Below are positions 44,053 through 61,167 of a DNA stretch of 64,000 bases, piece by piece (within the stretch, counting starts at the first letter, position 1; every line of letters begins with the position of its first letter). Origin of the DNA: Actinoplanes sandaracinus (GTDB lineage Bacteria > Actinomycetota > Actinomycetes > Mycobacteriales > Micromonosporaceae). Below the pieces are notes generated by a model. That model had not been told where the DNA came from. It saw only the letters and a program-made list of their open reading frames with translations, and made no database searches. The translations under genes and the position numbers were made by a program. The stretch covers positions 1-64,000 of the forward strand of contig NZ_JASCTH010000032.1 of the NCBI RefSeq assembly GCF_030009775.1, written 5' to 3'.

Positions 44053-44136
44053 ATCGTCCCAGATGGCCCTTCAAGCGTGAGAAAGACGTTACGAATTCGT
44101 GTCGAGGGTCCTCCCGCTGGAGACCAGTGACCCCAT

Positions 44137-46051: not shown

Positions 46052-48652
46052 GTGGCTGATCCGAGGATCATCAGCTGGCACGAGGCAGGCGTTGAGCGGC
46101 GGAAGGCGCTCCTGGGACGCGGCGGCACCCAGGAACGACTGCAAGGCAGCCCTAGCCTTGCAGCGGAGATTCGTGATCTCCTCGAGGATGTCCGGTCGCG
46201 CGGTGACGCGGCGCTACACGAGGCTCTCGCCCGGTTCGACAAGGTGGAAACCGATACCCTCCGGGTTACCGAGGCCGACATGCTCCAGGCCGAGAAGCAC
46301 ATCAACCCGGAGCTGTCTGAAGCCATCGATCTGGCCATCAAACGGTCGATGAGATTCAACAAGCAGATCGTCCGGCGCGCGACATGGACAGCGCGGACAG
46401 CCGGCGGCGGGACCATCGGTGAGATCGCCCGGCCGCTGGAGTCGGTCGGCCTCTTCGTTCCCTCGGGGAAGGGCTCGTTCCCGAGCGTCATGGTTCAGAT
46501 CGGTGCCCCCGCGGTGGCGGCGGGAATGTCCGAACTGCGCCTCGTCGTCCCGCCGATGCCGGGGAGCGGCGGGCAGGTCGATCCGGCGACGCTGGTGGTG
46601 GCGCGGCGCCTAGGCATCACCGAGGTGTACCGACTCAACGGGCCGAGTGGCGTCGGCGCACTCGCCTACGGCACGGAGACGGTGCCGAAGGTACGCAAGA
46701 TCGTCGGCCCGGGCAGCGTCCCGGTAGCAATGGCCCAGCAATTGGTGCAGGCGGAAGGAGTTGTGGTCTCGGGAGGTCTCGGGCCATCGGACTCACTCAT
46801 CGTGGCGGATTCCAGCGCCGACGTTCCCATGCTCGCCGCCGACGTGATCAATGAGGCCGAGCACGGTCCGGACAGTTCGGCGGTGCTCATCTCGACCGAC
46901 CGAAACCTACTCGAGCGGGTCGCTGTCGAGATCGAGGCACAGCTTGCGGATCTGCCCGAACCGCGGCGCGCATACGCTACAGCCTCGATCTGGCAGAACG
47001 GCGGCCTCGTGCACGCCCTGGACTTGGCCGAGGCGTGGCAGCTCGCCAACGACTACGCCCCCGAGCACATCCAGATCGCCATGGCCTCCCCGGAGCGATT
47101 CCTCGAAGAGGTCCGCTATGCCGGTACCGCGCTGCTCGGCCAGTGGACCACCTTCTCCTGCTCAAACTTCGTCATCGGCACGCCGGCCACCCTCCCAACC
47201 ACGGGATACGCGAAGCAGATCAGCGGCGTAACGGCACACACCTACCTCAACACGATCTCGATGGCGCAGATCGGTCAGCAGGAGTTCTCAGAGCTTGCGA
47301 AGGGCGTCACCGCTTTCGCTGAGCACGAGGGCTTCCCCGCGCACGCGGCTTCGGTGGCCGTCCGGACCGCAGCGAACCGACACGACGCCGACGGTGGTGG
47401 TACTGCTGCTCGTCGTCGCGGCACCGTTCTACTGGTTCGCTGGCGTACCGATGTGGTGGAGCGGCTTCGCCGGATGGGTTTCGCCGTCGCCGTCCTCTAC
47501 CTGCCGTCCGAGGCCGCGCAGGTGAATCGCGACCTCGTGGACTATGCCGAGATGGTCGACGACGTGGTGAACATCGAGCGTATCCACGGCGCCCTGGCGC
47601 GAATGGCGATTCCCGACCTTGTCGGTCTGCTCAACATCGACGAGTGGTCCCTGGTCGCCAGCTCCTACGTCGCCCAGCAGTTCGGCTTGCCGGCAATGGA
47701 TCCCGACGTGGCGATGAGATTCCGCGACAAGTATCTACAAAAACGCCGGCTGCATGAAGCAGGCGTGCCAACCTCGCGGGTCGAGTTGATACCCGACATC
47801 TGCGGACCCGATGTGCCCGCCGCTGTCGAACGGTTCGGCTACCCGGCCGTGCTGAAGCCGCTCGCCGGCGCCGGCGCCGCACTGACGTACCGCGTCGACT
47901 CGGAGTCGGACCTGAGCGAACTCATCGAGCGCGCTGCCAGCGACTCGTACGGCAGGCGAACCTATTTGATCGAGGAGTTCCAGGCCGGCGACGAGTGGCA
48001 CATCGACGGCTATGTGCGTGACGGCGAGCTGGCCTTCTTCTCGGTCGCCCGCTTCGACGAGCCGATCATCCAGGTCCACCACGGCTCCGCCATGGCGTCG
48101 CGAAGCTTCGATCCCGACACCGACAAGTGGGCTTACGAACTGGTCGGCAAGCTCGCCTCCGATGCGCTGAAAGCTCTCGGGCTCCGTGACTCGGTCTTCC
48201 ACCTGGAGGCGTTCCATCGACCGGACGGGCAGCTGATCTTCGGTGAATGCGCGGCAAGGCCGGGCGGCGCCATGATCGATGAGTCGGTACACGTGAAGTT
48301 CGGCGTGGACCTGATCGAGGCCGCCATCGCGTTCGCGACGGGCGACCACGACGCTCTGCCGAAGCCAACGGTGCGGCCCGGGGTGGTCGGGTTCACCTAC
48401 CTTCCGTCGAAGCCGGGCCTGATCGCGTCGATGCCCAGCGAGAAGGAACTGCTCGAACGCCCCGGCGTGGCCAGAGCCAGGTACTGGGTGAAAGCCGGCG
48501 GGCGGGCACCCGACATGACGGTGTGGAGTGCCGCGCGTGTCGGCGAAGTGGTCCTCTGCGCGCCTGACGCGGAAACGTACGACTCGTACTTCGCCGGGAT
48601 CCTCGGCTGGTTCGAACAGCATCTTCACCTGGCTGAGGGTGAAGCCATCTGA
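46052..48652 (+). CDS. HisD-like dehydrogenase fused to an ATP-grasp ligase
   Basis: The 866-residue fusion has a histidinol-dehydrogenase-like half (about 1-440) and an ATP-grasp half (about 457-866). In the first, YGTETVPKVRKIVGPG and the catalytic pair APEH (Glu338, His339) are kept, as are zinc-ligand equivalents His271 and His431. However, the usual Gln ligand is Glu268 and the Asp ligand is Asn372. In the second, DKYLQKRRLHEAGVPTS, YPAVLKPLAGAGA, YLIEEFQAGDEWHIDGY and LIFGECAARPGG are the ATP-grasp core. HisD enzymes oxidise an alcohol to a carboxylate, and ATP-grasp ligases join a carboxylate to an amine. GTG 46052 is chosen for its AGGAGG (46038-46043), 8 bases upstream. Confidence 0.87.
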   Translation: MADPRIISWHEAGVERRKALLGRGGTQERLQGSPSLAAEIRDLLEDVRSRGDAALHEALARFDKVETDTLRVTEADMLQAEKHINPELSEAIDLAIKRSMRFNKQIVRRATWTARTAGGGTIGEIARPLESVGLFVPSGKGSFPSVMVQIGAPAVAAGMSELRLVVPPMPGSGGQVDPATLVVARRLGITEVYRLNGPSGVGALAYGTETVPKVRKIVGPGSVPVAMAQQLVQAEGVVVSGGLGPSDSLIVADSSADVPMLAADVINEAEHGPDSSAVLISTDRNLLERVAVEIEAQLADLPEPRRAYATASIWQNGGLVHALDLAEAWQLANDYAPEHIQIAMASPERFLEEVRYAGTALLGQWTTFSCSNFVIGTPATLPTTGYAKQISGVTAHTYLNTISMAQIGQQEFSELAKGVTAFAEHEGFPAHAASVAVRTAANRHDADGGGTAARRRGTVLLVRWRTDVVERLRRMGFAVAVLYLPSEAAQVNRDLVDYAEMVDDVVNIERIHGALARMAIPDLVGLLNIDEWSLVASSYVAQQFGLPAMDPDVAMRFRDKYLQKRRLHEAGVPTSRVELIPDICGPDVPAAVERFGYPAVLKPLAGAGAALTYRVDSESDLSELIERAASDSYGRRTYLIEEFQAGDEWHIDGYVRDGELAFFSVARFDEPIIQVHHGSAMASRSFDPDTDKWAYELVGKLASDALKALGLRDSVFHLEAFHRPDGQLIFGECAARPGGAMIDESVHVKFGVDLIEAAIAFATGDHDALPKPTVRPGVVGFTYLPSKPGLIASMPSEKELLERPGVARARYWVKAGGRAPDMTVWSAARVGEVVLCAPDAETYDSYFAGILGWFEQHLHLAEGEAI

Positions 48653-49755
48653 TGGACGAGAGCCTTCTTCTGCCGGCCACCGCGGCGCCTTTCCAGCTGG
48701 ATCCCCAGGGAGTGGAGCGACTCGCCCTCAGCGAATCGGCCTTCGGGCCCTCACCGAGGGCCATCAGTGCGGCAATGGCGGAGGTCCGCAATGCGCACCT
48801 CTATCCCAACGCCGACTCCGAGCCGGTACGCCTTGCCGTCGCGTCACTTTACGGCCTTGATCCCGGGCAGGTGGTGGTGGGCAACGGGGCCGACGAACTA
48901 CTGTTGCTGATCGCACTCGCCTGTGGCGGCCATCGCGTACGTGCCACGGTCTGTGCCAGCACGTTCGCCGGACACGCCGCGAGTCTCGCGGTCGCGGGTT
49001 GCGAGGTGACCCAGCTCCCGATTGATGACACTGGCCTCGCCCTGACCGATCTGCTGACCGCCGCGGAGACGGCCGACGTTCTCTATGTCTGCAATCCCCA
49101 CAACCCCACCGGCACGGTGCTCGGGGCCGACCAGATAGCGACGCTGGCCGCGCACAGCCGCCGGTATGGCTGTGCTCTGGTCCTCGACGAGGCATACGCC
49201 GAGTTCGCCGATGCCCGTGTCTTCGGCTCAGGTACGGGCATGGTCGCAGACGACAACACGGCCCCCGTGGTCGTCATCCGCAGCCTTTCCAAGGCGTACG
49301 GCCTGGCCGGCCTGCGCTGCGGTTTCGCACTTGGGCCGCCCGCGCTGATGAACCGGGTCGCCCGTATCGCGGCGACGCTGCCCTATCGGGTCAACCGCGT
49401 TTCCCTCGCCGCGGCCGGCGCCGCGCTGGCCGACCGCGACCACCTCGAGTGGGCGCTGGAACAGACCACGCACAGCCGTGAATGGCTGCGCCGGGAACTG
49501 TCCGACCAGGGGTTCCGGGTGCCACCCACTCAAACCAACTTCCTGTTCGCTCATCTCGGGGACGACGGACCGCAGATCGTCGAGCGTCTGCTGACGGAGC
49601 ACTCGATTCTGGTCCGTGATCTCACCGGAATGGGCTTCCCCGGATGGGCACGGATTGGTGTGTGCCGCCCGGAATTCGTACCGAGACTCGCCGGGGCGCT
49701 GACCGCCGTCCGCGATGACGCGAGCGCTGACACGAAGAGGAGCACAACATGTTGA
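48652..49755 (+). CDS. HisC-like class I/II aminotransferase
   Basis: The 367-residue PLP enzyme resembles histidinol-phosphate aminotransferase: VVVGNGADELLLLIALA, YVCNPHNPTGTVL, LVLDEAYAEFAD, and IRSLSKAYGLAGLRCGF with the PLP Lys. It ends with a TNFLFAHL region typical of HisC. As it sits beside HisD-like genes but in no histidine operon, it more likely acts on a related amino-alcohol phosphate or keto acid. Its ATG overlaps the previous stop by one base (TGATG). Confidence 0.9.
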   Translation: MDESLLLPATAAPFQLDPQGVERLALSESAFGPSPRAISAAMAEVRNAHLYPNADSEPVRLAVASLYGLDPGQVVVGNGADELLLLIALACGGHRVRATVCASTFAGHAASLAVAGCEVTQLPIDDTGLALTDLLTAAETADVLYVCNPHNPTGTVLGADQIATLAAHSRRYGCALVLDEAYAEFADARVFGSGTGMVADDNTAPVVVIRSLSKAYGLAGLRCGFALGPPALMNRVARIAATLPYRVNRVSLAAAGAALADRDHLEWALEQTTHSREWLRRELSDQGFRVPPTQTNFLFAHLGDDGPQIVERLLTEHSILVRDLTGMGFPGWARIGVCRPEFVPRLAGALTAVRDDASADTKRSTTC

Positions 49756-51413
49756 CCGGCGCAGAAGCGGTCGCACGCTTGTTACGCAAGGCCGGTGTCC
49801 GCAGGGCCTACGGTGTTCCGGGGCAAAGGGTTCTACCGCTTTTCGCGGCTCTCGCCGAGGAGAACGTGCCGGTCGTGGTCACCCGCCACGAGCAGGGCGC
49901 CTCCTTCATGGCGGACGTGTACGCGCGACTCGGTGGCATGGGGTGCATCGTCACGACGTCGGGGCCAGGAGGCATCAACGCCTTGGCCGGTGTCGCGTCG
50001 GCCTTCATGGACAGCGTGCCGCTCATCGTGCTGACCGCGCAGGCGGAGGTGGCGGAGTTCGGTCGTTACGGGATCCAGGAAGGCAGCGGTCTGGGGCGCA
50101 CCCCGGACGTGCGGCAGATCTTCGCGGCCACCACCAAGGCCAGCTTTCAACCGCGTACTGTCGACAAGCTCGTCGATGCGGTGGCCGAGGCGCTGGCGCT
50201 CGCGGTCCGTGGGCGGCCTGGACCTGTACACATCGATGTTCCCTCTGACCTCCTCACCGACAAGGTGGCCGCGGGGCTGGTCGAGGAGCTTGCCGCCGGA
50301 GCACCGGCTCCGGCAGCCGTGCCCGAGCCGGCTGCGGAACTGATCCGTGAAGTCGCTGGGCGCATTCGCTCGGCGAAGTCCCCGCTGCTGCTCATCGGCA
50401 ACGGCGTGGTTCGTGGCGGCGCCGTCACGGCTGCGCAGCAGGTCGCTCGGCACGGCAGCATGTGGATCGCGCACTCATTTCTCGCGAAGGGTGCGTTCGA
50501 CGAGACCAACGCGGCCGTCCTCGGCCCGGTCGGCGTTTTCGGTACGGAGGCCGCGAATCGGGCCTTGCATGATGAGGCCGACCTCGTGGTCGCTGTGGGC
50601 GTCGCGTTCTCCTACCTGACCACAAGCGGCTGGCCCGCGCGGTTGGGCGGTGGCCGTCTGATCCGTTGTGATCTGGATCAGCGTGAACTCGGCACAAATT
50701 ACACCGACGGGGTCAACATCCATGCGGATGCCCGCGTCTTCCTAGAATCGCTGGCAACCGAACTCGCCACGTCGGACGAGGGCAATGCCCCACTTGGGCC
50801 GGATCTGAAGGCACGATACCCCGACCTCCGTGCACCGGAGGAGTCAGCGGCACTGCACCCCATCCGGGTGTGCGACGTCGTCGGAGAGTGGATCGCCGAG
50901 AACACGACCGTGGTCGCGGATGTCGGCCAGAACGCCTATTGGGTCGAGCGACATCTGAAGACTCGCGGCGGCGGCCGCTTCATCATCAACGGAGGACTGG
51001 GCGCGATGGGACACGGTGTCGCGGGTTGCCTGGGAGCATGGCACGCAGGTCAGGATGCGGGGCGGCCGGGTCCGGTCCTGTGCACTACCGGTGACGGCGG
51101 GTTCATGATGGGTGCTCTGGAGGTGTCGACGGCGGTTTCGGAGGGCGCCGACGTCACCTGGATCATCTTCAACAACGGGACGCTCGGCACTCAGAAGGAA
51201 TGGTACGTCCGCCAGGGTGCGAGCGGTTCCGAGATGGATCTGCCCGACACCGACTACGTGGCGCTCGCATCGGCGATGGGCGCGCGTGCATTCCGGGCCA
51301 CCACCGAGGAGGAGCTTCGCGAGGCCCTGGGCTCGGCCGGCGCCCATTCCGGTCCGACCGTCATCGATGTCGTCATCGACCCGGTCCCCGCACCGACGGT
51401 GTTCGGATCATGA
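49749..51413 (+). CDS. Thiamine-diphosphate-dependent enzyme (acetolactate-synthase-like)
   Basis: The 554-residue protein has the three ThDP-enzyme domains. The activating Glu lies in TRHEQGASFMADVYAR. TTSGPGGINALAGVASAF and GPVHIDVPSDLL are in the first domain, and the ThDP motif GDGGFMMGALEVS ... IIFNNGTLG in the last. The family includes acetolactate synthase, benzaldehyde lyase, sulfoacetaldehyde acetyltransferase and sulfopyruvate or phosphonopyruvate decarboxylases; the sequence alone does not decide. No small regulatory subunit is present, so true branched-chain ALS function is less likely. GAGGAG precedes the ATG at 49749, which overlaps the upstream gene by 7 bases. Confidence 0.9.
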   Translation: MLTGAEAVARLLRKAGVRRAYGVPGQRVLPLFAALAEENVPVVVTRHEQGASFMADVYARLGGMGCIVTTSGPGGINALAGVASAFMDSVPLIVLTAQAEVAEFGRYGIQEGSGLGRTPDVRQIFAATTKASFQPRTVDKLVDAVAEALALAVRGRPGPVHIDVPSDLLTDKVAAGLVEELAAGAPAPAAVPEPAAELIREVAGRIRSAKSPLLLIGNGVVRGGAVTAAQQVARHGSMWIAHSFLAKGAFDETNAAVLGPVGVFGTEAANRALHDEADLVVAVGVAFSYLTTSGWPARLGGGRLIRCDLDQRELGTNYTDGVNIHADARVFLESLATELATSDEGNAPLGPDLKARYPDLRAPEESAALHPIRVCDVVGEWIAENTTVVADVGQNAYWVERHLKTRGGGRFIINGGLGAMGHGVAGCLGAWHAGQDAGRPGPVLCTTGDGGFMMGALEVSTAVSEGADVTWIIFNNGTLGTQKEWYVRQGASGSEMDLPDTDYVALASAMGARAFRATTEEELREALGSAGAHSGPTVIDVVIDPVPAPTVFGS

Positions 51414-52693
51414 CGCCATCCCGCAACGGCGTGATCGCCTATCCTTCACCGCAGTTCGACAGTTATGCGCGTACGTCAGGATCGGCGGGCCCTCTCGTCG
51501 ACCCCGGCACCATCGCGGAGGTCCGGGCGGTCTTCCGGAGAGTGGCCGAAACGGGCCTCGAAGCGGTCGCGGACATCTCACGGCAACGTGACGGGCTGGC
51601 TCCCGGTACACCGATCGTCGTCGACCCGTCGGTGCTGAAGGCACAGGCCGCGCTCGTCGACGATCATCTGGCGGACAGCCTCCGCGAGGCTTACCGGGCT
51701 CAGCTGGCGGTCGCCGAGGCCGCACTCGCTCAGGACGTCACGGTGGACGTTCGTGACGGTGTCGTCACGAGACTCGTCCACCGGCCCGTGACCAGCGTCG
51801 CCCTCTACATTCCCGGCGGTCGTGAGCGATATCCGTCCACCCTGGTAGGGCTGCTCGCCGCCGCCCGTGCGGCCGGCGTTCCCGAAGTCACCGTGCTGCT
51901 GCCGCCGGATGCCGCCGGACTCCCAGACCCGGCGTGCGCCTGGATCTCCGCACTGGCCGGTGGCGTGACCACGCTCTGCGGAAACGGCCCGGCGCTGATC
52001 GCGGCTCTGGCGCTCGGCGTCGACGGCGTGCCCCCGATTCGCATGGTGGTCGGCCCCGGCGGTCCGGCAGTGGTGGCGGCTCAGCTCATCGCGGCTGAGC
52101 ACGGCCTGGCCACCGGCCCCGCCTTCGGTCCGACCGACTGCGCCGTGCTCGCCGGTCCCGACGCCGACCCGCGGCTGCTCGTCGCCGATCTGCTCACCGA
52201 GTCCGAGCATGGGCACGACCCGCGTCTGGTCCTGATCGGCTGGGGCGGCGTCGAGCACGCCTTCCAGGAGGCACTGACCAAGGACCCCGAGGGCGAACAG
52301 ATCTGGGCGCGTACCGGGACGATCGTCGTCTGCACCGATGAGAGCGACGCCGTCGAGGCCGCGAACAGGCTCGGCGGTGAGCAGATCCAGTTGGCGACCG
52401 GCCTCGACGACGCCAGAAGGCTACTGGACCGGGTCGAGGGATACGCCAGCGTACTACTCGGACAGGACACCTCGATCTCAGCCGCCTATCTCACGGGTGC
52501 TCCAGGTTGCCTGCCCACGGGCCCCGCCGCCAGGAGCGTCTCGGTGGTCACCTCCCAGACCTTCCGTCGCACGATGGTCGTCGGCCAGGTCGGTCCGTCC
52601 GCACAGTCCCCGCTTGCCGAGCTGGTGACACCCCTGGCCGCATACGAGGGGTTCCCCAGGCATGGAGCAAGCCAACAGATCCGATCGAAATGA
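51410..52693 (+). CDS. Second, divergent HisD homologue with altered active site
   Basis: The 427-residue protein keeps the HisD layout (PVTSVALYIPGGRERYPST, MVVGPGGPAVVAAQLIA, LLTESEHGHDPRLVLIG and a terminal EGFPRHGAS). The catalytic Glu-His pair reads GGEQ: Glu324 is kept but His is replaced by Gln325. The zinc-ligand equivalents are Glu264 and His267, Ala359 for Asp, and His418. It is therefore a diverged or inactive dehydrogenase, perhaps a partner of the HisD half of the first operon gene. Its ATG overlaps the ThDP gene's stop in an ATGA junction. Confidence 0.85.
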   Translation: MTPSRNGVIAYPSPQFDSYARTSGSAGPLVDPGTIAEVRAVFRRVAETGLEAVADISRQRDGLAPGTPIVVDPSVLKAQAALVDDHLADSLREAYRAQLAVAEAALAQDVTVDVRDGVVTRLVHRPVTSVALYIPGGRERYPSTLVGLLAAARAAGVPEVTVLLPPDAAGLPDPACAWISALAGGVTTLCGNGPALIAALALGVDGVPPIRMVVGPGGPAVVAAQLIAAEHGLATGPAFGPTDCAVLAGPDADPRLLVADLLTESEHGHDPRLVLIGWGGVEHAFQEALTKDPEGEQIWARTGTIVVCTDESDAVEAANRLGGEQIQLATGLDDARRLLDRVEGYASVLLGQDTSISAAYLTGAPGCLPTGPAARSVSVVTSQTFRRTMVVGQVGPSAQSPLAELVTPLAAYEGFPRHGASQQIRSK

Positions 52694-52707
52694 GGAACGA
52701 CCGACCC

Positions 52708-53952
52708 ATGGACGAGCTTTCCGGCCGATTCGCCGAGTCCGAGATCTTCGTTGAGCGTGCACATGGGCCCTGGCTCATCAGCGAGAACCAGCGCTGGGTC
52801 GACCATGTCCTGGGCAACTGCTCGCAGCTACTAGGTCACAGCCACCCGGTCGTTGTCGACCGGGTCCAGGAGCAAGTCGCTCGGATGACGAACGTGGGCG
52901 ACCACAAGACGAACGAGGCGTACCGTCTCGCACGACGAATCCTGGAGATCTCGGGCATGGATTCGCTGCGATTCGTCAGCAGCGGGAGCGAGGCCGTGCA
53001 CGTGGCGCTCCGCACCGCACGGGCGGCGACCGGTCGCCGAAAGGTGCTGAAATTCGCGGGCCACTATCACGGATGGTTTGCCGAGGAGATCTCGCGATTC
53101 GTACCTCAGCTCGACTACGCCGGTGGCATCTCACCGGCCGCGCCGGGTGATCTGCTCATCGCGGACTGGAACGACGCTGATGCCGTCCGTGCGCTGGTGG
53201 CGGAACACGGCAATGAACTCGCCGCGATCATCTGCGAGCCCATCCTGTGCCACGCGGGTCCCGTACCTCCGGTCGATGGGTTCCTAGAATTGCTGCGCTC
53301 CCAGACAACCGCATCGGGCGCCCTATTGATCTTCGACGAGTGCATCACGGGATTCCGCCTAGGCATCGGCGGCGCTCAGGAATGGTCCGGGGTCAAGGCC
53401 GACCTGGTGACCTACAGCAAGGCGCTGAGTGCGGGCTTTCCGCTCGGCGTGTGCGCGGGCACCGCAGCCGCGATGGCGCCGCTGGCAGAAGGACGCGCAT
53501 ACCAAGCGGCGACCTACGACGCCAACTCGGTCTCTGTCGCCGCGGCGCACGCCGTGCTCGACGTCCTCGGCACGGAGCCGGTCTACGAGCGGATCACCTC
53601 CTACGGCGAGCGGCTCCGCGGCTTCATCGGTGAGACGCTCACCGCCCACGACGTCAAAGCCGTCTGTCAGGGCGTGCCAGCCGTATTCCAGCACTTCTTC
53701 ACCGAAGCGCCGGTCCGCAACCATCGCGACGCCCTGGCCTCCGACACCGTCCTCTACGGTTTCCTCGTCGAGGAGCTCCTGAAGCGGGGCGTCAACATCT
53801 ACAAGGGCGATCTGCGGCCCGATCCGGATGCGAGCTGGCTGTCTCAGTGGTTCGTCAGCTCGGCGCACGACGACGAATCCTTCGAGACGACGACGGCGGC
53901 CTACCCGGCGGCACTCCAGGCGGCGCTCCGCCGGCGTCGGGAGGCGAAATGA
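52708..53952 (+). CDS. Class III aminotransferase, glutamate-1-semialdehyde-aminomutase-like
   Basis: The PLP enzyme of about 414 residues matches HemL-type aminomutases and omega-aminotransferases: GHSHPVVVDRVQEQ, RFVSSGSEAVHVALRTARAA, GHYHGWF, LIFDECITGFRLGIGGAQ, and YSKALSAGFPLGVCAG with the PLP Lys. The start at ATG 52708 is preferred as GAGGA precedes it; an ATG at 52690 would overlap the upstream stop (ATGA). No tetrapyrrole genes are near, so it probably aminates or rearranges a pathway-specific aldehyde or keto compound. Confidence 0.9.
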   Translation: MDELSGRFAESEIFVERAHGPWLISENQRWVDHVLGNCSQLLGHSHPVVVDRVQEQVARMTNVGDHKTNEAYRLARRILEISGMDSLRFVSSGSEAVHVALRTARAATGRRKVLKFAGHYHGWFAEEISRFVPQLDYAGGISPAAPGDLLIADWNDADAVRALVAEHGNELAAIICEPILCHAGPVPPVDGFLELLRSQTTASGALLIFDECITGFRLGIGGAQEWSGVKADLVTYSKALSAGFPLGVCAGTAAAMAPLAEGRAYQAATYDANSVSVAAAHAVLDVLGTEPVYERITSYGERLRGFIGETLTAHDVKAVCQGVPAVFQHFFTEAPVRNHRDALASDTVLYGFLVEELLKRGVNIYKGDLRPDPDASWLSQWFVSSAHDDESFETTTAAYPAALQAALRRRREAK

Positions 53953-54296
53953 CGGCCGGTGAACCGATTCAGCTGTCCACCCACATGTGGATGCGTACCC
54001 TGGTCGACCTCGGCACATTGTCCCTGGACTACCTCGAGATCCAGCCCGGCTCGATCCGGACGCCGGTCGTGCACGACAACTGCGACGAGTTGTCATACAT
54101 CCTGTCCGGAGAACTCGAGTTCCACCTGGGTGATCAGAAACGGGTGATGCGGGCGGGCGAGGCCATCGGTGTTCCGCGCGGCGTCCCGCACGGCAGCGTC
54201 AATCACGGGCCGGAGGTCGTTCGCATGCTGGCCGCCAACTCGCCGGCGTTTCGTCTCGAGGACGAGGTCGAGCTTCAGCCGGAGGAAGAGGCATGA
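53949..54296 (+). CDS. Single-domain cupin
   Basis: The 115-residue protein has cupin motif 1 around VVHDNCDELSYILSGELEFHLGD and motif 2 in GVPRGVPHGSVNHG. The usual G(X)5HXH(X)3,4E(X)6G has only one His in the first motif (VHDNCDE), so the metal site is uncertain. Cupins serve as isomerases, dioxygenases, epimerases or binding proteins. It overlaps both neighbours in ATGA junctions, tying it to the pathway. Confidence 0.85.
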   Translation: MTAGEPIQLSTHMWMRTLVDLGTLSLDYLEIQPGSIRTPVVHDNCDELSYILSGELEFHLGDQKRVMRAGEAIGVPRGVPHGSVNHGPEVVRMLAANSPAFRLEDEVELQPEEEA

Positions 54297-55135
54297 GCCC
54301 GGCGGCGAACCCTGTGGTGCAATCCGTGTACCTGCTCGACGACCTGAGCGACCGGATACGCGAACGAGCCCACTCGGCGGGCCTCGGCCCTTCGGAGACC
54401 TCGACGCTACTCGCAGCCGCCAGGCGGACGACGCTGGAAGCGGCGGCAGCATTCCCGCTCGGTGAGGTGAGCGTGGACCTGATCACCTGGGAGCACGTCA
54501 CAGAATCGCTACGGGTACGGCTGGGCAGCCTGCCCGCCCCGTCAGTGACTGCCGAGACACTTGTCCTGGGTGACGGTGGCGCGCGGCTCGCGTCGATCAT
54601 CGAGGCGTGGGGGATCCGGCTGCCGGGCCGGGTGGAGATTCCCGTGGCCAAGGTGCTCGAAGACCCCGCCAACGCGTTTTACTCACCGCACCACATCAGG
54701 CAGCGTGACAGGAAACCTCTGGCGGTCGGCACGGTGAGCAATGCCGGCGAGCTCATCGTGGTGGACGACTGTGTGCAGACCGGCATGACCTTCGACGCCG
54801 TCGCCGCGGCGACGGGCGCGCGGAGCGGGTCCATCATCACCGGCATCTGCAACGAGGCGACGCTTGGTCGTCTTCGCGCCGACGGGTGGACCGTCCACTA
54901 CGGTGTCCTCCTGCCCGGACCCACGTACCCGGATTCTTACTCGACCGACCTCTTCTGCGTACGCGACTTCGTCGTCACCGACGCTGTCCGCTTCGCCGAC
55001 GGCAGCTCGACCTCGTACAGTTCAGGCGGCGACTGGCTGGAGCTCCTTTACGGTGACCCACAGGCAGCGGAGACCGTCCGCGCGGCTTGGATGGAGCTTG
55101 CCGAACTGCTGGCCGGGGCGGGCGTGGAAGTATGA
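54293..55135 (+). CDS. Phosphoribosyltransferase-like protein
   Basis: The 280-residue protein contains the PRPP-binding signature ELIVVDDCVQTGMTFDAVAA and a preceding beta-alpha-beta segment with EIPVAKVLED. The N-terminal 80 residues are helical, and the C-terminal 70 (FVVTDAVRFADGSSTSYSSG) are distinctive. It may add or remove a ribose-5-phosphate on a pathway intermediate, or sense PRPP. A PRTase beside HisD/HisC-like genes is notable as histidine synthesis also begins with PRPP. Both ends overlap neighbours in ATGA junctions. Confidence 0.78.
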   Translation: MSPAANPVVQSVYLLDDLSDRIRERAHSAGLGPSETSTLLAAARRTTLEAAAAFPLGEVSVDLITWEHVTESLRVRLGSLPAPSVTAETLVLGDGGARLASIIEAWGIRLPGRVEIPVAKVLEDPANAFYSPHHIRQRDRKPLAVGTVSNAGELIVVDDCVQTGMTFDAVAAATGARSGSIITGICNEATLGRLRADGWTVHYGVLLPGPTYPDSYSTDLFCVRDFVVTDAVRFADGSSTSYSSGGDWLELLYGDPQAAETVRAAWMELAELLAGAGVEV

Positions 55136-56421
55136 CACCACGGTGGGCCCGAGCACGTGGGCTGTGGCCCCGCGATCCACACGAGCGTCGCCTCGCATCG
55201 ATGTCGCTGGTGGACTCGGTCGGTACGGGAGTCTTCGTTGCCACGGTCCCGCTGTTCCTCATCAGGCACCAGCACCTCAGCGCCTACCAAGTGGGATGGA
55301 TGCTGTCGGCGGCGGGCCTGGCCCTGCTCCTGACAACGGTGCCCGCCGGGCATCTGGCTGATCTGCTTCCGCTGCGGGCGCTGTACGTGGCGGGGTCGCT
55401 GGTGCAAGCTGTCGCCAGCGTGATGCTGGCAGTGGCACCGTCGACGGCTGCGGTCTGGGTGGCCCTCATCGCAGCGAGCTTCGGGGCGGGGATCGTAGCC
55501 CCGCCCCGGTCGGTCATCGTCGCCCGGGTCGCGGCACCTGACAACCTGGTGCGGGTACGGGCGTACAACCGATCCGTATTCAGCGTCGGCATGTCGGTCG
55601 GCGCCGGAATCGCCTCCCTCGTGGTACTAGCGGATCGTCCCGGGTGGTACGGCGCCGGTTTCGCGCTCAACGCCATCACCTTCGTGGTCAACAGTGTCCT
55701 TGTCCGTCTTCTTCGCATCCGGGTTCCGGAACCTCAGCAAGCCGCTACCAGCAACAGCGGGCCGGCCCGTCATACCGGGGACCGCTGGGCGGTCTACCGC
55801 GATGTCCGGTTCCTTCTCGCCGCCGCCGTCAACGCGCTCCTTTTCATGACCGCGGTACTCGTCGATCCGCTACTGGCGGTCTACGTCGCTACCGGCGCGA
55901 ACACCCTCACGGTGCTCATACCGGCGCTGATCGCTCTCAACACCGTGCTCACGGTCGTACTCCAGGTTCCACTCAGCCGCCGGTGCGTCGGGGCGGAGGG
56001 CGTCCGTGCCACCCTGCGCCGGGCGGGTGTCGCCGTCCTGGTGGGCTGCGTGTTCGTGGCGCTGAGCGCCGCCAGCGATTCGAACGCCGGCGTGATCGGT
56101 GCACTGATCCTGGGCATGACCGCTCTGACCTGTGCCGAGATCTTCATGTCGGCGGCGTCCTGGGAAACCTCGTTCCTGTTGGCGCCACCTCACCTGCAAG
56201 GTCAGTACTTCTCGACGTTCAACCTCGGCCCCGGCCTTGCCATGGCATTCGGGCCCGGGCTGCTCGCTCCCTTGGTGCTTCTGGACCACGGGGTCGGGTG
56301 GCTCCTCGCCGGGTCGGTGCTGTGCGCGGTGGGAATCTTCGGTGCCTCGGTCACCGGCAACACGATCGCACAGCGAGTTGTGCTCGCGGCGCCGGCGCCC
56401 ACCCCCTCAACGACCAATTAA
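55132..56421 (+). CDS. MFS transporter, 12-helix
   Basis: The 429-residue membrane protein has about 12 hydrophobic segments with a central loop near residues 195-220, and a motif A-like AGHLADLLPLRALYV between helices 2 and 3. It probably exports the pathway product or an antibiotic-like compound. The ATG at 55132 overlaps the PRTase stop (ATGA). Substrate class cannot be predicted. It is followed after 9 bases by the ABC importer genes. Confidence 0.88.
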   Translation: MTPRWARARGLWPRDPHERRLASMSLVDSVGTGVFVATVPLFLIRHQHLSAYQVGWMLSAAGLALLLTTVPAGHLADLLPLRALYVAGSLVQAVASVMLAVAPSTAAVWVALIAASFGAGIVAPPRSVIVARVAAPDNLVRVRAYNRSVFSVGMSVGAGIASLVVLADRPGWYGAGFALNAITFVVNSVLVRLLRIRVPEPQQAATSNSGPARHTGDRWAVYRDVRFLLAAAVNALLFMTAVLVDPLLAVYVATGANTLTVLIPALIALNTVLTVVLQVPLSRRCVGAEGVRATLRRAGVAVLVGCVFVALSAASDSNAGVIGALILGMTALTCAEIFMSAASWETSFLLAPPHLQGQYFSTFNLGPGLAMAFGPGLLAPLVLLDHGVGWLLAGSVLCAVGIFGASVTGNTIAQRVVLAAPAPTPSTTN

Positions 56422-56430
56422 GGACAGTCT

Positions 56431-57450
56431 ATGAACTCGCGTTCCCTGGTGCCGCGCCGACTTCTGGCGGTACTCGGCTCGGTCCTTGTCGGTTTCGGAC
56501 TCGCGGCCTGCAATTCCGACGTCCCCAGCTCGTCCGGCGATGCCAACCCGGCTCGCGTGAGCATGGGCACCCAAGCCTGGATCGGTTACGGACCCTGGCA
56601 CATCGTGAAGGAGAAAGGATTCGACAAGAATCACGGAATCGACCTCGACCTCGTCAACTTCAACACTGACGCGGACCTGTCGTCGGCATTCGCGGCAGGC
56701 CGCCTACAGGCCGGGAACGCCGCGACCAACACGGTCGCGCAGTTCCTGAAGGCGGGCCAGCCACGCACCATCGTCCTGTTCGAAGACACCTCCCGCACCG
56801 CAGACGCCATCCTGGCCCGCCCGGACATCCGTTCAGTCGCGGATCTCCGCGGCAAGAAGGTCGCCTTCGAGGAGGGCACCACGAGCGACATCCTGCTGCG
56901 CCACGCGCTGTCCACCGCCGGTCTCGGAATGGATGACATCAAGGTGGTGCCGACTCCCGCCTCGGATGCCGGATCGGCACTGATCTCCGGCGGTGTGGAT
57001 GCAGCGGTGACCTATGAGCCGTACATCTCGGCCCTCCGGCGGCAGGATTCTGAAGTCGCGCCGATCTTCACCGCGGGAGACAAGCCCGGTCTCATCTCGG
57101 ACACCCTCACGGTCAACACCGAATGGGCTAAGAAGAACCCGGCGGTGGTATCAGATCTCCTTCTCGCCTGGAACGACGCCGTCATGTACTACCGCGAGCA
57201 CAAGCAGGAGGCTCAGGCCATCATCGCGAAGGGGGTCGGCGTCGATGTCGCCGATCTGACGACAAGCTTCGACGGTGTCGACTTCTATGACCTTCAGCAA
57301 TCGAACACATACCTGACGAAGGAGTTCCCGGAGACGGCTTCCGTCATCGAGAAGGTTCTTTCCTCCACGGCGGACGAGTCGGCATCGGGCGTCAGTATCG
57401 CCGGAGCGGTCGACACCTCGTACGGCGCGAAGGCCGGAGGCGCGAATTGA
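56431..57450 (+). CDS. ABC importer substrate-binding lipoprotein (SsuA/NMT1-like)
   Basis: The 339-residue precursor has a lipoprotein signal (LGSVLVGFGLAACNSD) with Cys27 as the lipid anchor. It has NMT1/SsuA-like features: GTQAWIGYGPWHIVKEKGF, FNTDADLSSAFAAGRLQAG, LRGKKVAFEEGTTSDILLRHAL and GGVDAAVTYEPY. This family binds sulfonates, nitrate, taurine, riboflavin precursors or amidines. Its sequence does not decide which. Permease and ATPase follow immediately, making a complete importer. Confidence 0.9.
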   Translation: MNSRSLVPRRLLAVLGSVLVGFGLAACNSDVPSSSGDANPARVSMGTQAWIGYGPWHIVKEKGFDKNHGIDLDLVNFNTDADLSSAFAAGRLQAGNAATNTVAQFLKAGQPRTIVLFEDTSRTADAILARPDIRSVADLRGKKVAFEEGTTSDILLRHALSTAGLGMDDIKVVPTPASDAGSALISGGVDAAVTYEPYISALRRQDSEVAPIFTAGDKPGLISDTLTVNTEWAKKNPAVVSDLLLAWNDAVMYYREHKQEAQAIIAKGVGVDVADLTTSFDGVDFYDLQQSNTYLTKEFPETASVIEKVLSSTADESASGVSIAGAVDTSYGAKAGGAN

Positions 57451-58304
57451 GCCTCGGCCACGCAACCCCGGCGACCGGCGAGTTGAGCACGGCTCGCCGG
57501 GCCGTGCAACCGGTGCGGCGCCATCAACTGTTTCACCAGCCCTCCCGTACCGCGTTCTGGATCTGGGGATCGGCCGTCATGGCCGCCCTCGGCATCGTGT
57601 GGTTCGGGGTGACGGCGCTCGAATTTGCCAATCCGTACTTTCTGCCCTCGCCCGGAGCCGTTTGGACGGCCGGCTACGAGATGGCGTCAACGGGCCAACT
57701 CTGGGCGGACACCTCCGAAAGCATGCGGCGTATCGTCATCGGGTTTCTCATATCCACGGCACTGGCCCTGCCGATAGGGCTGCTGATGGGGTCGGTGGGC
57801 CGTTTCGAGGCAGCCCTGGAACCCTTCATCGACTTCGTCCGGTACATGCCGGCGGTGGCGTTCGTCCCGCTCACCATCGTGTGGTTCGGCGTCGATGAGG
57901 GTCAGAAGTACTCGATCATCTTCATCGGCACCTTCTTTCAGCAGGCGCTCATGATCATGGACAATGTCAAACGTACGCCACTCGACTATGTCCGGGTCGG
58001 CGAGACCCTCGGCCTCGGTACCACGAAGCTGCTGCGAAGAATCGTGCTGCCAAGCTCAGGACCCGCGATCTGGGACACACTCCGAATCTCATTCGGGTGG
58101 GCCTGGACGTGGCTGGTGGTCGCCGAGCTCGTAGCCGCCCGGGACGGCCTGGGCCAGCGAATCGTCGTTTCCCAGCGGTATTTCGACACCGACCGCATCT
58201 TCTTCCTCATCGGACTCATCGGAGTAATCGGCCTGGTCCTCGACCAGTTGTTCAAGATTGCCGGGCGGGCACTGTTCCGGTGGTCCAGCACGGAGAGAGG
58301 TTGA
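57447..58304 (+). CDS. ABC importer permease (SsuC/TauC-like)
   Basis: The 285-residue protein has about six membrane helices and the permease EAA-like motif DYVRVGETLGLGTTKLLRRIVLP. RYMPAVAFVPLTIVWFGVDEG is typical of the NitT/TauT type. The first 45 residues are a polar extension. The start is TTG at 57447 overlapping the upstream stop (TTGA), an unusual start codon. It pairs with the following ATPase. Confidence 0.9.
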   Translation: MSLGHATPATGELSTARRAVQPVRRHQLFHQPSRTAFWIWGSAVMAALGIVWFGVTALEFANPYFLPSPGAVWTAGYEMASTGQLWADTSESMRRIVIGFLISTALALPIGLLMGSVGRFEAALEPFIDFVRYMPAVAFVPLTIVWFGVDEGQKYSIIFIGTFFQQALMIMDNVKRTPLDYVRVGETLGLGTTKLLRRIVLPSSGPAIWDTLRISFGWAWTWLVVAELVAARDGLGQRIVVSQRYFDTDRIFFLIGLIGVIGLVLDQLFKIAGRALFRWSSTERG

Positions 58305-58305
58305 G

Positions 58306-59103
58306 ATGTCGGCAGTTCGGATCGTGAATGTGACGAAGACATACACCACTCGCAGCGGGCGGACCCAGGCGCTCAGCCCGATCAACGTCTCGTTCCGGCC
58401 GGACGAGTTCACCGCCATCCTCGGAACATCGGGATGCGGGAAGAGCACACTGCTGCACATCGTCGCCGGGCTCGAGCAGCCCAGCACCGGCCACATCGAG
58501 GTCAACGGAACAGCAGTGAGCGGGCCGGGCCGTGACCGCGGCATGGTCTTCCAGAACTACACCCTTTTCCCATGGCTCACAGTTCAGCAGAACGTTGAGT
58601 TCGCCCTTCGCGACCTTCCGATGAGCCGCAGAAAACGCCATGATCAAGCACGGGAGTATCTGGGGCTGGTAGGCATGGAAGCCTTCGCGGCGGCCCACCC
58701 GAGTGAGCTCTCCGGCGGCATGAGGCAACGTGTCGCCATCGCACGGGCGCTGAGCTATCAGCCACGGGTGCTCCTGATGGATGAGCCGTTCGGTGCGCTC
58801 GATGCCCAAACCCGGCAAGGCATGCAGATGCTGCTCACCAGGGTCTGGGAGGAGCACCGAATGAGCGTGCTGTTCGTGACCCACGACATCGAGGAGGCCG
58901 TCTGCCTGTCCGACCGGGTCATCGTGATGAGCCGCCGACCCGGAGCGATCAAGGCGGACCTAGCCATCGACATTCCTCGTCCGCGTGGCATCGACACGCT
59001 GACCAGTGCCGAACTGAACGGCTATAAGGCCGAGCTCCTACAGCTCATCCGCGAGGAGGCGGATGACGCCCAGACGGCGGCATCCGCCAAGCGAGCCGGA
59101 TGA
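58306..59103 (+). CDS. ABC importer ATPase (SsuB/TauB-like)
   Basis: The 265-residue ATPase has Walker A GTSGCGKST, Q-loop VFQNYTLFPW, signature LSGGMRQR, Walker B VLLMDEPFGALD and H-loop VTHD. ATG 58306 follows GAGAGAGG by 5 bases. It powers the importer formed with the two previous gene products. The family transports small, charged organic molecules. Confidence 0.92.
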   Translation: MSAVRIVNVTKTYTTRSGRTQALSPINVSFRPDEFTAILGTSGCGKSTLLHIVAGLEQPSTGHIEVNGTAVSGPGRDRGMVFQNYTLFPWLTVQQNVEFALRDLPMSRRKRHDQAREYLGLVGMEAFAAAHPSELSGGMRQRVAIARALSYQPRVLLMDEPFGALDAQTRQGMQMLLTRVWEEHRMSVLFVTHDIEEAVCLSDRVIVMSRRPGAIKADLAIDIPRPRGIDTLTSAELNGYKAELLQLIREEADDAQTAASAKRAG

Positions 59104-59106
59104 TTC

Positions 59107-61167
59107 ATGAACTCGCATTCACGCGTCATCGGCTATGTACCACGATTTCAGTACACGCCAGGCTCGGGGATAGCCGTCCATGTGCACGGCGACGGAGCAC
59201 CGGTGCGAGCGGACCTAGTCCATCTGAGCGGACCCGAGGCTCCGACACCGATCCCGGGAACCGCCCGCACACTCGGATCGCCGCCTCCGCAGCGCATTGA
59301 CATCGGCTCATGGGCGAGTGCGCCAGGCAGGTGCCATTCAGTCGCCGTCACGGTCAGTATCGCGACATACCTGACGGCATGGCCGGTCGAATGCGCTGGC
59401 CTGATAGGCGTCGATAGTCCCGACTGGGGTTGGACACTGGAGGTCACCGGCCGCCGTGAGATGCGCCTACGCATCCGCGATGGCGCCGCCGTCGCCGACG
59501 CGGCGATGCCCGCCGCCCTCCTTCTCGGCGCCTGGAACAACATATGCATAGAGCTGTCACCAGACGGTGCTGATGTCACGGTCGGCCACCATCGTCTACG
59601 CCTCGAAACGTCGGTGACCATGCGGCCAGGCGACCCGCTCCACTGGACTCTCGCGCGGGTGCCGTGGCGTTCTGAGGACAGTGCTGGACACGCCTCCTTG
59701 GACGGAAAGATCGCCAACGTCGAGGTGTCGTGGCGCGACCAGGGTCAAGCTGTGGCCCGCCACCGATGGGACTTCGCGCCGGCCGCGAATCGCGCGGTCG
59801 TCCCGCCGCTGACCCCGCAGACCGAGCCGCTCGTGTTGCATCAGGCACCGACCCGCGCGGTCACCGGGCCTCACTGGACCGGCGAGACGCACCATTGGCC
59901 GGACGCTCCCGGGCAGTGGGATGCCATTCATTTCCATCGCGACGATCTCGAAGACGCCGGCTGGCCGGTCGCCACCACTTTCGCGCTGGGTGCGGATCTG
60001 CCCACCGGCGTGTACGGCATCCGTCTGAAGGGCGAGCGCAATGATGATGTGGTGCCCTTCGTAGTGGGCTCTGCACACGGCGCCCGGAAGCCCGAAGTCC
60101 GGGTCCTCCTGCCCACAATGACCTACCTGGCCTATGCCAACGAGCCCATCTTCGAACCGCACGTACCACTGCATCGCGGCTGGTGGGATGACTGGGCGGA
60201 GCGGCTCGGACTGCTGAGCCTCTACAACTGGCACGCCGACGGGAGCGGCGTGAGCCTGGCAAGTACCCGCCGGCCGCTGCTCAACATGCGACCGGACCAT
60301 CGTTACTGGCTGACCGGTGCTCCTCACGGTCTCTCGCTGGATCTGCAGCTGCTCAAGTGGCTCCAGACGATCGGCTTCGATGCCGGCCTGCTGACAGACC
60401 ACGAGCTGGACGCTGATCCGGATGCCGCGCTCGACGGCACCCGGGTCCTCGTCACCGGCTCGCACCCCGAATACTGGACCCGTCGCATGATGACGGCGAT
60501 GGAGAGGTTCCTCGGGAAGGGTGGGCGCCTGGCCTATCTCGGCGGAAACGGGTTCGCCGCGATGGTCGGAGTCGACCGGGAGAGACCGCATCTGCTCGAG
60601 CTGCGACGCCGTGCGAGTCTGCCCGGGCTCTGGGACGCGTCACCCGGTGAACTGGGGCTAGCCACGACCGGTGAAGTGGGTGGTTACTGGCGCCACCACT
60701 CGCCTAGCCCCAGATCGATGACCGGCCTCGACTCAGCGGGGATGGGGTTCACCACCGCGCGTCCGTATCGGCGCACTACGGAGTCCGACGATCCCGCATG
60801 CGCATTCGTCTTCGACGGCGTCACAGCTCGCGTCTTCGGCGAACGCTCGGCCGTGCTCGGCGCCGCCGGCGGCTATGAGGTCGACAGCGTCGACTTCAAG
60901 CGAGGTACACCGTCGGACACGCGCGTACTGGCAACTGCCGCCGGTTTCGACTCTGCATACGTCGGCCTTGATCAAAGTGGCATAGTTCGTTCTGATGTTG
61001 TTCTTCGAATGTTGAGGACTGGCGGCGCGGTCTTCGGCGTGGGGTCGATCGCCTGGTGCGGATCTCTCGGAGGCAGCCACTGTGATGTGAACATCGAACG
61101 AGTCACCGAGAATGTGCTTCGTCGCTTTGCAGATCCGACGCCATTCCTTGGAAGCGAAGGACTGTGA
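59107..61167 (+). CDS. N,N-dimethylformamidase large-subunit-like protein
   Basis: The 686-residue protein has an N-terminal LamG-like beta-sandwich (about 60-230) and a large C-terminal domain with a glutamine-amidotransferase-like fold. It shows HFHRDDLEDAGWPV, GVYGIRLKGE, VRVLLPTMTYLAYAN, and HPEYWTRRMMTAMERFLGKG with GRLAYLGGNGFAAMV. This layout matches the beta subunit of N,N-dimethylformamidase, which hydrolyses amides. No small alpha subunit gene is seen. The start lies 3 bases after the ATPase stop. Placed last in an operon that also encodes an amide-forming ATP-grasp enzyme, it may open an amide in the imported or produced compound. Confidence 0.82.
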   Translation: MNSHSRVIGYVPRFQYTPGSGIAVHVHGDGAPVRADLVHLSGPEAPTPIPGTARTLGSPPPQRIDIGSWASAPGRCHSVAVTVSIATYLTAWPVECAGLIGVDSPDWGWTLEVTGRREMRLRIRDGAAVADAAMPAALLLGAWNNICIELSPDGADVTVGHHRLRLETSVTMRPGDPLHWTLARVPWRSEDSAGHASLDGKIANVEVSWRDQGQAVARHRWDFAPAANRAVVPPLTPQTEPLVLHQAPTRAVTGPHWTGETHHWPDAPGQWDAIHFHRDDLEDAGWPVATTFALGADLPTGVYGIRLKGERNDDVVPFVVGSAHGARKPEVRVLLPTMTYLAYANEPIFEPHVPLHRGWWDDWAERLGLLSLYNWHADGSGVSLASTRRPLLNMRPDHRYWLTGAPHGLSLDLQLLKWLQTIGFDAGLLTDHELDADPDAALDGTRVLVTGSHPEYWTRRMMTAMERFLGKGGRLAYLGGNGFAAMVGVDRERPHLLELRRRASLPGLWDASPGELGLATTGEVGGYWRHHSPSPRSMTGLDSAGMGFTTARPYRRTTESDDPACAFVFDGVTARVFGERSAVLGAAGGYEVDSVDFKRGTPSDTRVLATAAGFDSAYVGLDQSGIVRSDVVLRMLRTGGAVFGVGSIAWCGSLGGSHCDVNIERVTENVLRRFADPTPFLGSEGL

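Follow-up and report, generated by a model that had tools for sequence, protein, structure and literature searches.

Bacilysin-type clusters combine a BacD ATP-grasp ligase with a cupin, an aminotransferase, a dehydrogenase and an MFS exporter, and are marked by a BacA-type prephenate decarboxylase. In the window analysed here, a stretch of 64,000 nucleotides from Actinoplanes sandaracinus, an ATP-grasp ligase, cupin, aminotransferase, dehydrogenase and MFS transporter likewise occur in one operon. This operon differs, however, in that its ligase is fused to a HisD homologue and shows similarity to BacD at only 4e-4, and in that it adds a ThDP enzyme, a second HisD homologue, an importer and a dimethylformamidase (DMFase)-like hydrolase, while Pfam recognised no BacA-type domain among the twelve operon proteins. 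A second point of comparison is a Streptomyces locus (genome G1373; L066/L067) with an NRPS/PKS core, which shares a TetR regulator (43 %), an EN-type HisD (55 %), a binding protein (44 %), a permease (51 %) and an ATPase (56 %), EN-type here denoting a HisD with the altered zinc ligands Gln259 to Glu and Asp360 to Asn. On sequence reading it also carries an MFS-like gene, as well as a hydrolase-like gene after the importer, but it has no match to genes C, E, F, G and L (Table 1) and lacks the ATP-grasp fusion. The third comparison is with a module of an EN-type HisD and an importer found in other bacteria, which shares with the operon this HisD and the orthologous binding protein, permease and ATPase and, in Planctomonas and Shinella, a DMFase-like gene. 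In contrast to the module, the operon carries a HisD joined to a ligase and lacks hut genes as well as genes for an FMN hydroxy-acid dehydrogenase, a Zn-ADH, an SDR and a kinase-like protein, while C, E and G are missing from the module loci. Literature searches with narrow terms found neither a published cluster matching the operon nor a description of an EN-type HisD/importer operon. With moderate confidence, we read the operon as an accessory biosynthetic cluster, probably gained by horizontal transfer and built round the EN-type HisD/importer module, whose product would be a small metabolite with an amide link, of dipeptide-like kind.

Inspection of open reading frames places the twelve genes of the operon (A to L) on the plus strand at 46052-61167 (Table 1), with an alternative ATG start for gene A at 45989. 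The tight packing described in the first-pass annotation is borne out, with genes overlapping at eight of the eleven junctions and a widest gap of nine bases. The A/B junction is TGATG (-1) and that of B/C is -7, the C/D, D/E, E/F, F/G and G/H junctions are each ATGA (-4), and these are followed by H/I (+9), I/J (TTGA, -4), J/K (+1) and K/L (+3). Predicted promoters (0 against 1.5 in shuffled sequences) and terminators (6 against 6.4) showed no excess. Divergent from the operon, at 43426-45860, lie genes for a TetR regulator, a methyltransferase and a nucleotidyltransferase-like protein. The TetR gene probably belongs to the cluster, since its homologue accompanies the shared HisD and importer in the NRPS/PKS locus of Streptomyces. 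Downstream, from 61167 to contig position 79900, a histidine kinase (Pfam) and, by ORF reading alone, sensor-like and transposase-like genes are found, and no further cluster genes are apparent by these means.

Table 1. Genes of the operon and its divergent flank, with supporting matches
Gene	Product	Position	Strand	Evidence
	TetR regulator	43426..44052	-	PF00440; 43 % homologue in Streptomyces NRPS/PKS locus
	SAM methyltransferase, cluster membership uncertain	44137..44910	-	PF08241 7e-11
	Nucleotidyltransferase/hexapeptide protein, cluster membership uncertain	44907..45860	-	PF24894, PF00483 weak
A	EN-type HisD-like domain fused to ATP-grasp L-amino-acid-ligase-like domain, 866 aa	46052..48652	+	PF00815 E 2.3e-112; ATP-grasp_4 3.6e-08; PDB 4wd3 1.3e-26
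B	HisC-like PLP aminotransferase (class I/II)	48652..49755	+	NCBIfam hisC 228.3 bits, below 276.55 cut-off; Pfam Aminotran_1_2
C	ThDP enzyme, acetolactate-synthase-like	49749..51413	+	Pfam TPP_enzyme N/M/C; PDB 8xod 7.8e-74, 8x3x 2.4e-73
D	Second, very divergent HisD homologue	51410..52693	+	PF00815 3.9e-63; His327 to Gln, gap at Asp360 position; long tree branch
E	HemL-like class III aminotransferase/aminomutase	52690..53952	+	PF00202 1.4e-51; PDB GSA aminomutase 1.5e-55
F	Small single-domain cupin	53949..54296	+	PF07883 7.4e-17
G	Protein without family match	54293..55135	+	No significant match in Pfam, NCBIfam or PDB; poor model
H	MFS transporter, probable exporter	55132..56421	+	PF07690 1.3e-29
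I	NMT1/SsuA-type substrate-binding protein	56431..57450	+	PF09084; SsuA_fam 142.8 bits, below 163.5 cut-off; 37-47 % to binding proteins beside EN-type HisD
J	ABC permease	57447..58304	+	PF00528 4.1e-22; 41-58 % to permeases of EN-type HisD loci
K	ABC ATPase	58306..59103	+	PF00005 2.4e-34; 51-56 % to ATPases of EN-type HisD loci; scanned from longer ORF start 58258
L	DMFase-like amide hydrolase with DMFase iron ligands	59107..61167	+	PF20254 (DMFA2_C) 3.5e-70; PDB 6lvb, 8huy; six residues kept

The HisD-like domain of A scores 372.2 bits against TIGR00069 (HisD), above the cut-off of 243.8. We take the zinc ligands of HisD to be Gln259, His262, Asp360 and His419. Active-site alignment columns show that A retains His262 and His419 together with Glu326 and His327, with Gln259 replaced by Glu and Asp360 by Asn, as is common to other EN-type sequences. 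On account of these two altered ligands, A is termed a HisD homologue and is not filed as HisD. In the available text of PMC11382572, Glu326 and His327 (E. coli numbering) are the catalytic residues. The comparison covered 114 sequences, which include repeats of one genome (L058/L064/L068) but exclude weak or short entries and duplicates of the loci in the window, with 42 of the 114 used for a tree; the division into EN-type and canonical forms has exceptions, with Ser at 360 in L097 and Asp at 259 in L109. A canonical HisD is encoded elsewhere in the same genome, on a different contig, and both HisD homologues of the operon are thus extra copies. In four other genomes (G868, G908, G995 and G1050) the EN-type protein is the sole PF00815 member and IGPD is also present, so that EN-type HisD has plausibly kept the ability to oxidise an amino alcohol resembling histidinol. 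The EN-type protein is likewise the sole HisD of genome G512, yet that genome has no IGPD match, which argues against a plain histidine-pathway role there.

The first-pass annotation had also pointed to sulfopropanediol dehydrogenase, a comparison that finds no support, A carrying GKGSF and D GRERY where HpsN enzymes have the motif GRY(A/S)H in the available text of PMC11382572. A role in sulfonate metabolism, pairing an SsuABC importer with a HisD of the DHPS-dehydrogenase type, would accord with the homology of HpsN to HisD and with SsuA_fam being the best NCBIfam match of I. However, that match falls under its cut-off, and the PDB matches of A are closer to HisD (3.6e-72) than to DHPS dehydrogenase structures (3.5e-45). 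On the motif mismatch and these weaker scores this reading was rejected as very improbable.

Biosynthesis of an amide-linked metabolite is favoured by the fusion itself. The nearest match of the ATP-grasp half of A is the L-amino-acid ligase of PDB 4wd3 (1.3e-26 over residues 45-362 of 413), by which it can be described as L-amino-acid-ligase-like. In searches that scored few candidates per genome (two in the displayed rows) after a loose first pass, the HisD-ATP-grasp fusion occurred solely in its own genome among the matches listed for 354 genomes of the family, and among 392 genomes of the class, seven others of which had the HisD half alone; it was found in none of 392 Streptomyces genomes, two of which had the HisD half alone. 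No relatives of the cluster were found in a single-protein scan of genome contigs, while on plasmids A, C, D, E and L had only distant matches, all below 60 % identity. The first-pass statement that no described system has such content thus stands for the rarity of the fusion, but not for the content as a whole, because an EN-type HisD with the importer recurs, often beside hut genes. The lower GC content of the operon (66.4 % against 71.3 % in the left part of the window) and the absence of the fusion from the remaining 353 genomes of the family, among the matches listed, fit acquisition, and the cluster is probably an accessory one gained by horizontal transfer. The tight operon, the HisD-ligase fusion, the retained HisD residues and the recurrence of the importer are all counted in favour of biosynthesis, together with the residues kept in L and the two loci that unite DMFase, importer and EN-type HisD. 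Between the two proposals of the first-pass annotation, that of amino-alcohol oxidation, ligation and export fared better than catabolism, given the proximity of the ATP-grasp half to L-amino-acid ligases and the same TetR/HisD/importer set in the Streptomyces NRPS/PKS locus.

The family labels given earlier to the operon genes were all confirmed by Pfam and NCBIfam, with the exception of the PRTase label of G. The sole support for this name is a degenerate PRPP-like stretch (IVVDDCVQTGMT); up to E 10 the sole Pfam match is AAA_lid_3 at 0.21, neither NCBIfam nor, up to E 1, the PDB gives a match, and the AlphaFold model, with a pLDDT of 39.8, cannot be used. The name was accordingly dropped. 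Homologues of G were found solely in its own genome among 394 genomes of the class, with no plasmid match. B is only 28-33 % identical to the HisCs of the compared HisD loci, and the solved structure nearest to C is BbmA, for which a literature search found no paper. D fails the TIGR00069 model (209.9 against 243.8 bits) and has the catalytic His327 replaced by Gln; at E <= 1e-40 it is matched in its own genome and seven of 386 genomes of the phylum, the matches in the seven being distant HisDs of 33-36 % identity. A guanitoxin-like reading was considered and rejected, as GntC and GntE appear in the NCBIfam match lists far below cut-off.

In the pathway that we infer, with its substrates, order of steps and product, ThDP enzyme C would build the carbon skeleton and the PLP enzymes B and/or E would add nitrogen, so yielding a vicinal amino alcohol for the HisD-like domain of A to oxidise to an amino acid in a four-electron NAD+ reaction. 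The ATP-grasp domain of A would activate a carboxylate and couple it to another amine, with H exporting the product. I/J/K and L may either import and free a histidinol-like precursor or recapture and cleave the product. A more specific route to non-proteinogenic, perhaps beta-hydroxy-alpha-, amino acids is a speculative and doubtful proposal: ThDP carboligation onto an aldehyde would yield a hydroxyketone, HisC/HemL-type amination a 2-amino-1-alcohol, and four-electron oxidation by the EN-type HisD, perhaps as a heterodimer with D, an amino acid that the fused ATP-grasp domain would couple directly into a peptide. If correct, the biosynthetic reading would add a new amide to the natural products made independently of NRPS, and also a rare case in which an amino-acid-making enzyme is fused to the ligase that uses that amino acid.

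Gene L shares the C-terminal domain, iron ligands and catalytic residues of the N,N-dimethylformamidase large subunit and of N-acetyl-(R)-beta-phenylalanine acylase. According to the available text of PMC7686228, the iron ligands of DMFase are Tyr399, Tyr440 and Glu521, while His519, Asn547 and Glu657 are important, and the large subunit is inactive without the small subunit. L aligns with the enzyme and retains all six residues. Its match is, however, limited to residues 247-679, so that the N-terminal part differs, and Pfam recognised no DMFase small subunit among the twelve operon proteins. A DMFase gene, the importer and an EN-type HisD occur together in Planctomonas and on a Shinella plasmid, and the link of DMFase to the module rests on these two loci. 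DMFase matches were found in 78 plasmid records, with the importer and HisD present in one of four neighbourhoods inspected (L063/L154) and absent from the other three (L060, L061 and L062). Neither the importer orthologue nor HisD was found in five genome neighbourhoods (L148-L152), drawn from the 14 other genomes with a DMFase match among 60.

The locus survey counted 79 of the best 80 of at least 461 HisD relatives, L096 being lost at a length/score filter; one of the two patterns used (AAD[LV]INEA) favours the EN-type, some contigs were shorter than the flank, and thresholds were chosen after the first matches were known. Among these 79, the orthologous importer adjoins the EN-type HisD in seven of 34 loci but canonical HisD in none of 45, and HutH and HutU are also present in four of the seven (L074, L076, L095 and L099). 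The importer is absent from the available DNA at 27 of the 34 EN-type loci, several on short contigs, and a DMFase gene occurs at one of the 34. A HisC gene lies nearby in 8/34 EN-type against 19/45 canonical loci of the same set and so does not characterise the module. Around the HisDs found to be closest (those of Streptomyces bluensis, Actinopolymorpha and Nonomuraea), the flanking 10 kb contain no importer and no hut genes, and no counterparts of C, E and G were found in the importer-linked loci. The EN-type HisD with the SsuABC-like importer is a recurrent module, co-occurring in Actinobacteria, Rhizobium plasmids and Terrilactibacillus beside either HutH/HutU or an FMN hydroxy-acid dehydrogenase, a Zn-ADH and a kinase-like gene.

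These neighbours, and the DMFase genes of two module loci, would suit a catabolic operon, in which a histidinol-like amino alcohol enters as its amide through I/J/K, is released by L and is then oxidised by HisD, while the remaining enzymes channel the carbon and H serves as an efflux safety valve. We consider this somewhat unlikely, as none of those neighbouring genes, nor an SDR, is present in the operon, which instead joins HisD to a ligase that consumes ATP and adds an MFS transporter and a ThDP enzyme of the carboligase type, and the closest TetR/HisD/importer set overall sits in an NRPS/PKS locus. The presence of exporter, importer and hydrolase in one operon could also reflect product recapture, as in siderophore recycling, with the MFS transporter exporting a ligand such as a metal binder, the importer retrieving it and L hydrolysing its amide bond, and the importer of the Streptomyces locus is likewise followed by a hydrolase-like gene. 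This appears improbable, however, since SsuA/NMT1-type binding proteins usually bind small organic anions and hut genes adjoin four of the seven importer loci in the survey. The Streptomyces hydrolase-like gene belongs to a family other than that of L and appears PTE-like on sequence reading alone.

Beyond the biosynthesis of an amide-linked metabolite proposed here, an EN-type HisD that travels with a specific importer across Actinobacteria, Rhizobium plasmids and one Bacillota genome may have wider relevance, and the pair is a testable candidate for the uptake and use of histidinol-like compounds. The importer is present in two (L184 and L187) of seven loci from the class, of which L186 and L187 appear to repeat L081 and L082. 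The binding protein of Planctomonas has matches in 787 plasmid records; three of these, near-alike ones from Rhizobium, were inspected, and an EN-type HisD lies nearby in all three.

The twelve tightly packed plus-strand genes (A to L) predicted in the first-pass annotation were borne out as a single operon, and Pfam and NCBIfam comparisons upheld all but one of its family labels, that of phosphoribosyltransferase for gene G. Gene A encodes a fusion of a HisD and an ATP-grasp domain. The closest solved structure to its ATP-grasp half is an L-amino-acid ligase (4wd3; 1.3e-26), followed by a second L-amino-acid ligase and, weakly, BacD (4e-4), while the ThDP enzyme encoded by gene C is closest to BbmA (about 1e-73), with the acetolactate synthases behind (2e-61). 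The individual parts of the operon belong to known families, and their logic resembles that of bacilysin-type clusters, which combine an ATP-grasp ligase, cupin, aminotransferase and exporter. Gene L is closest to N,N-dimethylformamidase (DMFase) and N-acetyl-(R)-beta-phenylalanine acylase, and residue mapping shows that it retains all six DMFase residues to which PMC7686228 assigns iron binding or importance for activity. The HisD-ATP-grasp fusion was detected only in the window's own genome among 354 genomes of the family and 392 of the class, and in none of 392 Streptomyces genomes. Relatives of gene G are absent from the other 393 class genomes searched, a draw overlapping that used for the fusion. 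Stand-alone ATP-grasp relatives are commoner than the fusion, with sixteen ligase-half relatives (33-40 % identity) among the family matches listed and one relative on a Streptomyces plasmid in secondary-metabolism surroundings. The window (C27:1-64000) derives from a 10.19 Mb genome split over 99 contigs, and the GC content of the cluster is 66.4 %, compared with 71.3 % for window positions 1-40000. The lowered GC content extends beyond the cluster, to approximately 78 kb on the contig, and the ORFs in this downstream stretch include sensor-like and transposase-like ones (read by eye). Thus the cluster is a piece of a longer accessory stretch.

Comparison of 114 HisD sequences distinguished two kinds, with single-site exceptions in loci L097 and L109. 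Canonical HisDs, one of which is encoded elsewhere in the window's genome, carry Gln259, Asp360 and His367, while those with altered zinc ligands, termed EN-type and including gene A, carry Glu259, Asn360 and mostly Ala367 (E. coli numbering). Glu326, His262 and His419 are common to both kinds (one sequence row ends before 419), as is His327, except in gene D. A tree built from 42 of the 114 sequences resolves the canonical HisDs as a supported group (100/99), which nine EN-type sequences from other bacteria adjoin, apart from the actinobacterial EN-type sequences; a single EN-type clade is thus not supported. The branch of gene D, the second HisD homologue of the operon, is too long for placement. 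Since Gln replaces the general base His327 in this protein and a gap occurs at Asp360, it may serve as a partner protein and not as an additional catalyst. One zinc-binding His of HisD enzymes is contributed by the second chain of the dimer, according to an excerpt of PMC11382572, and D may thus form a heterodimer with A. The HpsN motif, as described in the same excerpt, is absent, and the sulfopropanediol dehydrogenase comparison previously drawn was not sustained.

In four near-complete genomes of one other family of the phylum (G868, G908, G995 and G1050), an enzyme with the Gln to Glu and Asp to Asn zinc ligand changes is the sole PF00815 protein, and imidazoleglycerol-phosphate dehydratase (IGPD) is found in each; a fifth genome (G848) has one strong and one very weak PF00815 match. 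The simplest reading is that EN-type enzymes can yield histidine from histidinol despite the changed zinc ligands. However, G512 (94 % complete) encodes an EN-type enzyme as its only HisD yet has no IGPD match, which counts against this reading. Taken with the hut neighbours of other EN-type loci, the sole-HisD genomes favour a substrate that is an imidazole amino alcohol or resembles one.

A species-genome collection was scanned with an alignment of A-like HisDs, and the best 80 of 461 relatives were kept. Among these, orthologues of the importer (genes I, J and K) adjoin EN-type HisD in 7/34 loci and canonical HisD in 0/45 (Fisher p 0.002; thresholds chosen after first inspection). FMN hydroxy-acid dehydrogenases (14/34 versus 0/45), a kinase-like protein (13/34 versus 0/45) and Zn-alcohol dehydrogenases (10/34 versus 0/45) are likewise markers of EN-type loci. 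HisC is no such marker (8/34 versus 19/45), and DMFase occurs in 1/34 versus 0/45. HutH and/or HutU occur in L074, L076, L084, L095, L099 and L132 of this set, with NCBIfam scores above cut-off for HutH of L095 and HutU of L076. The Terrilactibacillus locus (L099) encodes, in order, HisD, binding protein, permease, ATPase, SDR, HutH and HutU. Rhizobium leguminosarum plasmids encode an SDR, HisD, Zn-ADH, hutC-like regulator, kinase-like protein, hydroxy-acid oxidase, importer and aminotransferase, some of these genes being annotated in one of two records only or spread over two frames. Operons joining EN-type HisD to an SsuABC-like importer occur in L155 (CP053209.2), L156, L157, L184, L095 and L099. 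Most of them additionally encode an SDR, a Zn-ADH, an FMN hydroxy-acid dehydrogenase and an APH-like kinase-like protein, while a hutC-like regulator or HutH/HutU is present in some; these operons represent a candidate route for the use of histidinol or an imidazole diol. Planctomonas, whose DMFase-like protein shares 39 % identity with that of gene L over residues 7-676, and a Shinella plasmid each combine a DMFase-like gene with the importer and an EN-type HisD; both importer and HisD are absent from the other DMFase neighbourhoods examined (five genomes, three plasmids).

Coordinates of the operon and of related loci
Feature	Location	Strand
Twelve-gene operon	window 46052-61167	plus
Divergent TetR gene	window 43426-44052	minus
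Methyltransferase and nucleotidyltransferase/hexapeptide gene pair	window 44137-45860	minus
Streptomyces (G1373) NRPS/PKS locus	L066:3635-19901 and L067:1-11568	
EN-type HisD and importer operon	L155:5085-15784	
EN-type HisD and importer operon	L099:10025-19366	
EN-type HisD locus, G512 (window's family), beside HAD-like, HisC-like, HisRS-like and HisG-like genes (last two read from sequences)	L047:5909-11820	
EN-type HisD locus, G466 (window's family), with HAD-like, HisC-like and kinase-like genes	L046:7160-11650	

Biosynthesis of a putative secreted product is the favoured role of the operon, which may instead be catabolic. Against a biosynthetic, module-based reading, the importer is missing from 27/34 EN-type loci in the sequence covered, and the closest HisDs among the relatives compared (S. 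bluensis, Actinopolymorpha and Nonomuraea) have no importer or hut genes within 10 kb. Furthermore, gene B resembles the HisCs of module loci no more closely than it does other HisCs, and genes C, E and G lack counterparts in the importer-linked loci compared; gene F has a weak cupin match, in L069 only. The HisD half of gene A has 55-57 % relatives in two of the 392 Streptomyces genomes. In S. bluensis HisD stands alone, while in G1373 it lies inside an NRPS/PKS locus (condensation, adenylation, carrier, thioesterase, ketosynthase and acyltransferase Pfam domains). Its neighbours there include orthologues of I, J and K (44 %, 51 % and 56 %, respectively) and of the window's divergent TetR (43 %). 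This co-occurrence ties the TetR to the window's cluster and places the common set in biosynthetic surroundings. Under biosynthesis, the HisD domain of A would convert an amino alcohol to an amino acid, which the ligase domain of the same protein would receive. The amino alcohol or the coupling partner would come from B, C and E, and H (MFS) would export the putative product. The recurrent importer, with L, could serve precursor uptake and amide cleavage, or product recapture. No description of the operon's gene combination, the fusion or the EN-type HisD/importer module was found in the open-licence PMC literature using narrow terms. The G1373 locus also contains MFS-like and PTE-like genes, as read from sequence, and the methyltransferase and nucleotidyltransferase/hexapeptide gene pair in the window is divergent from the operon.
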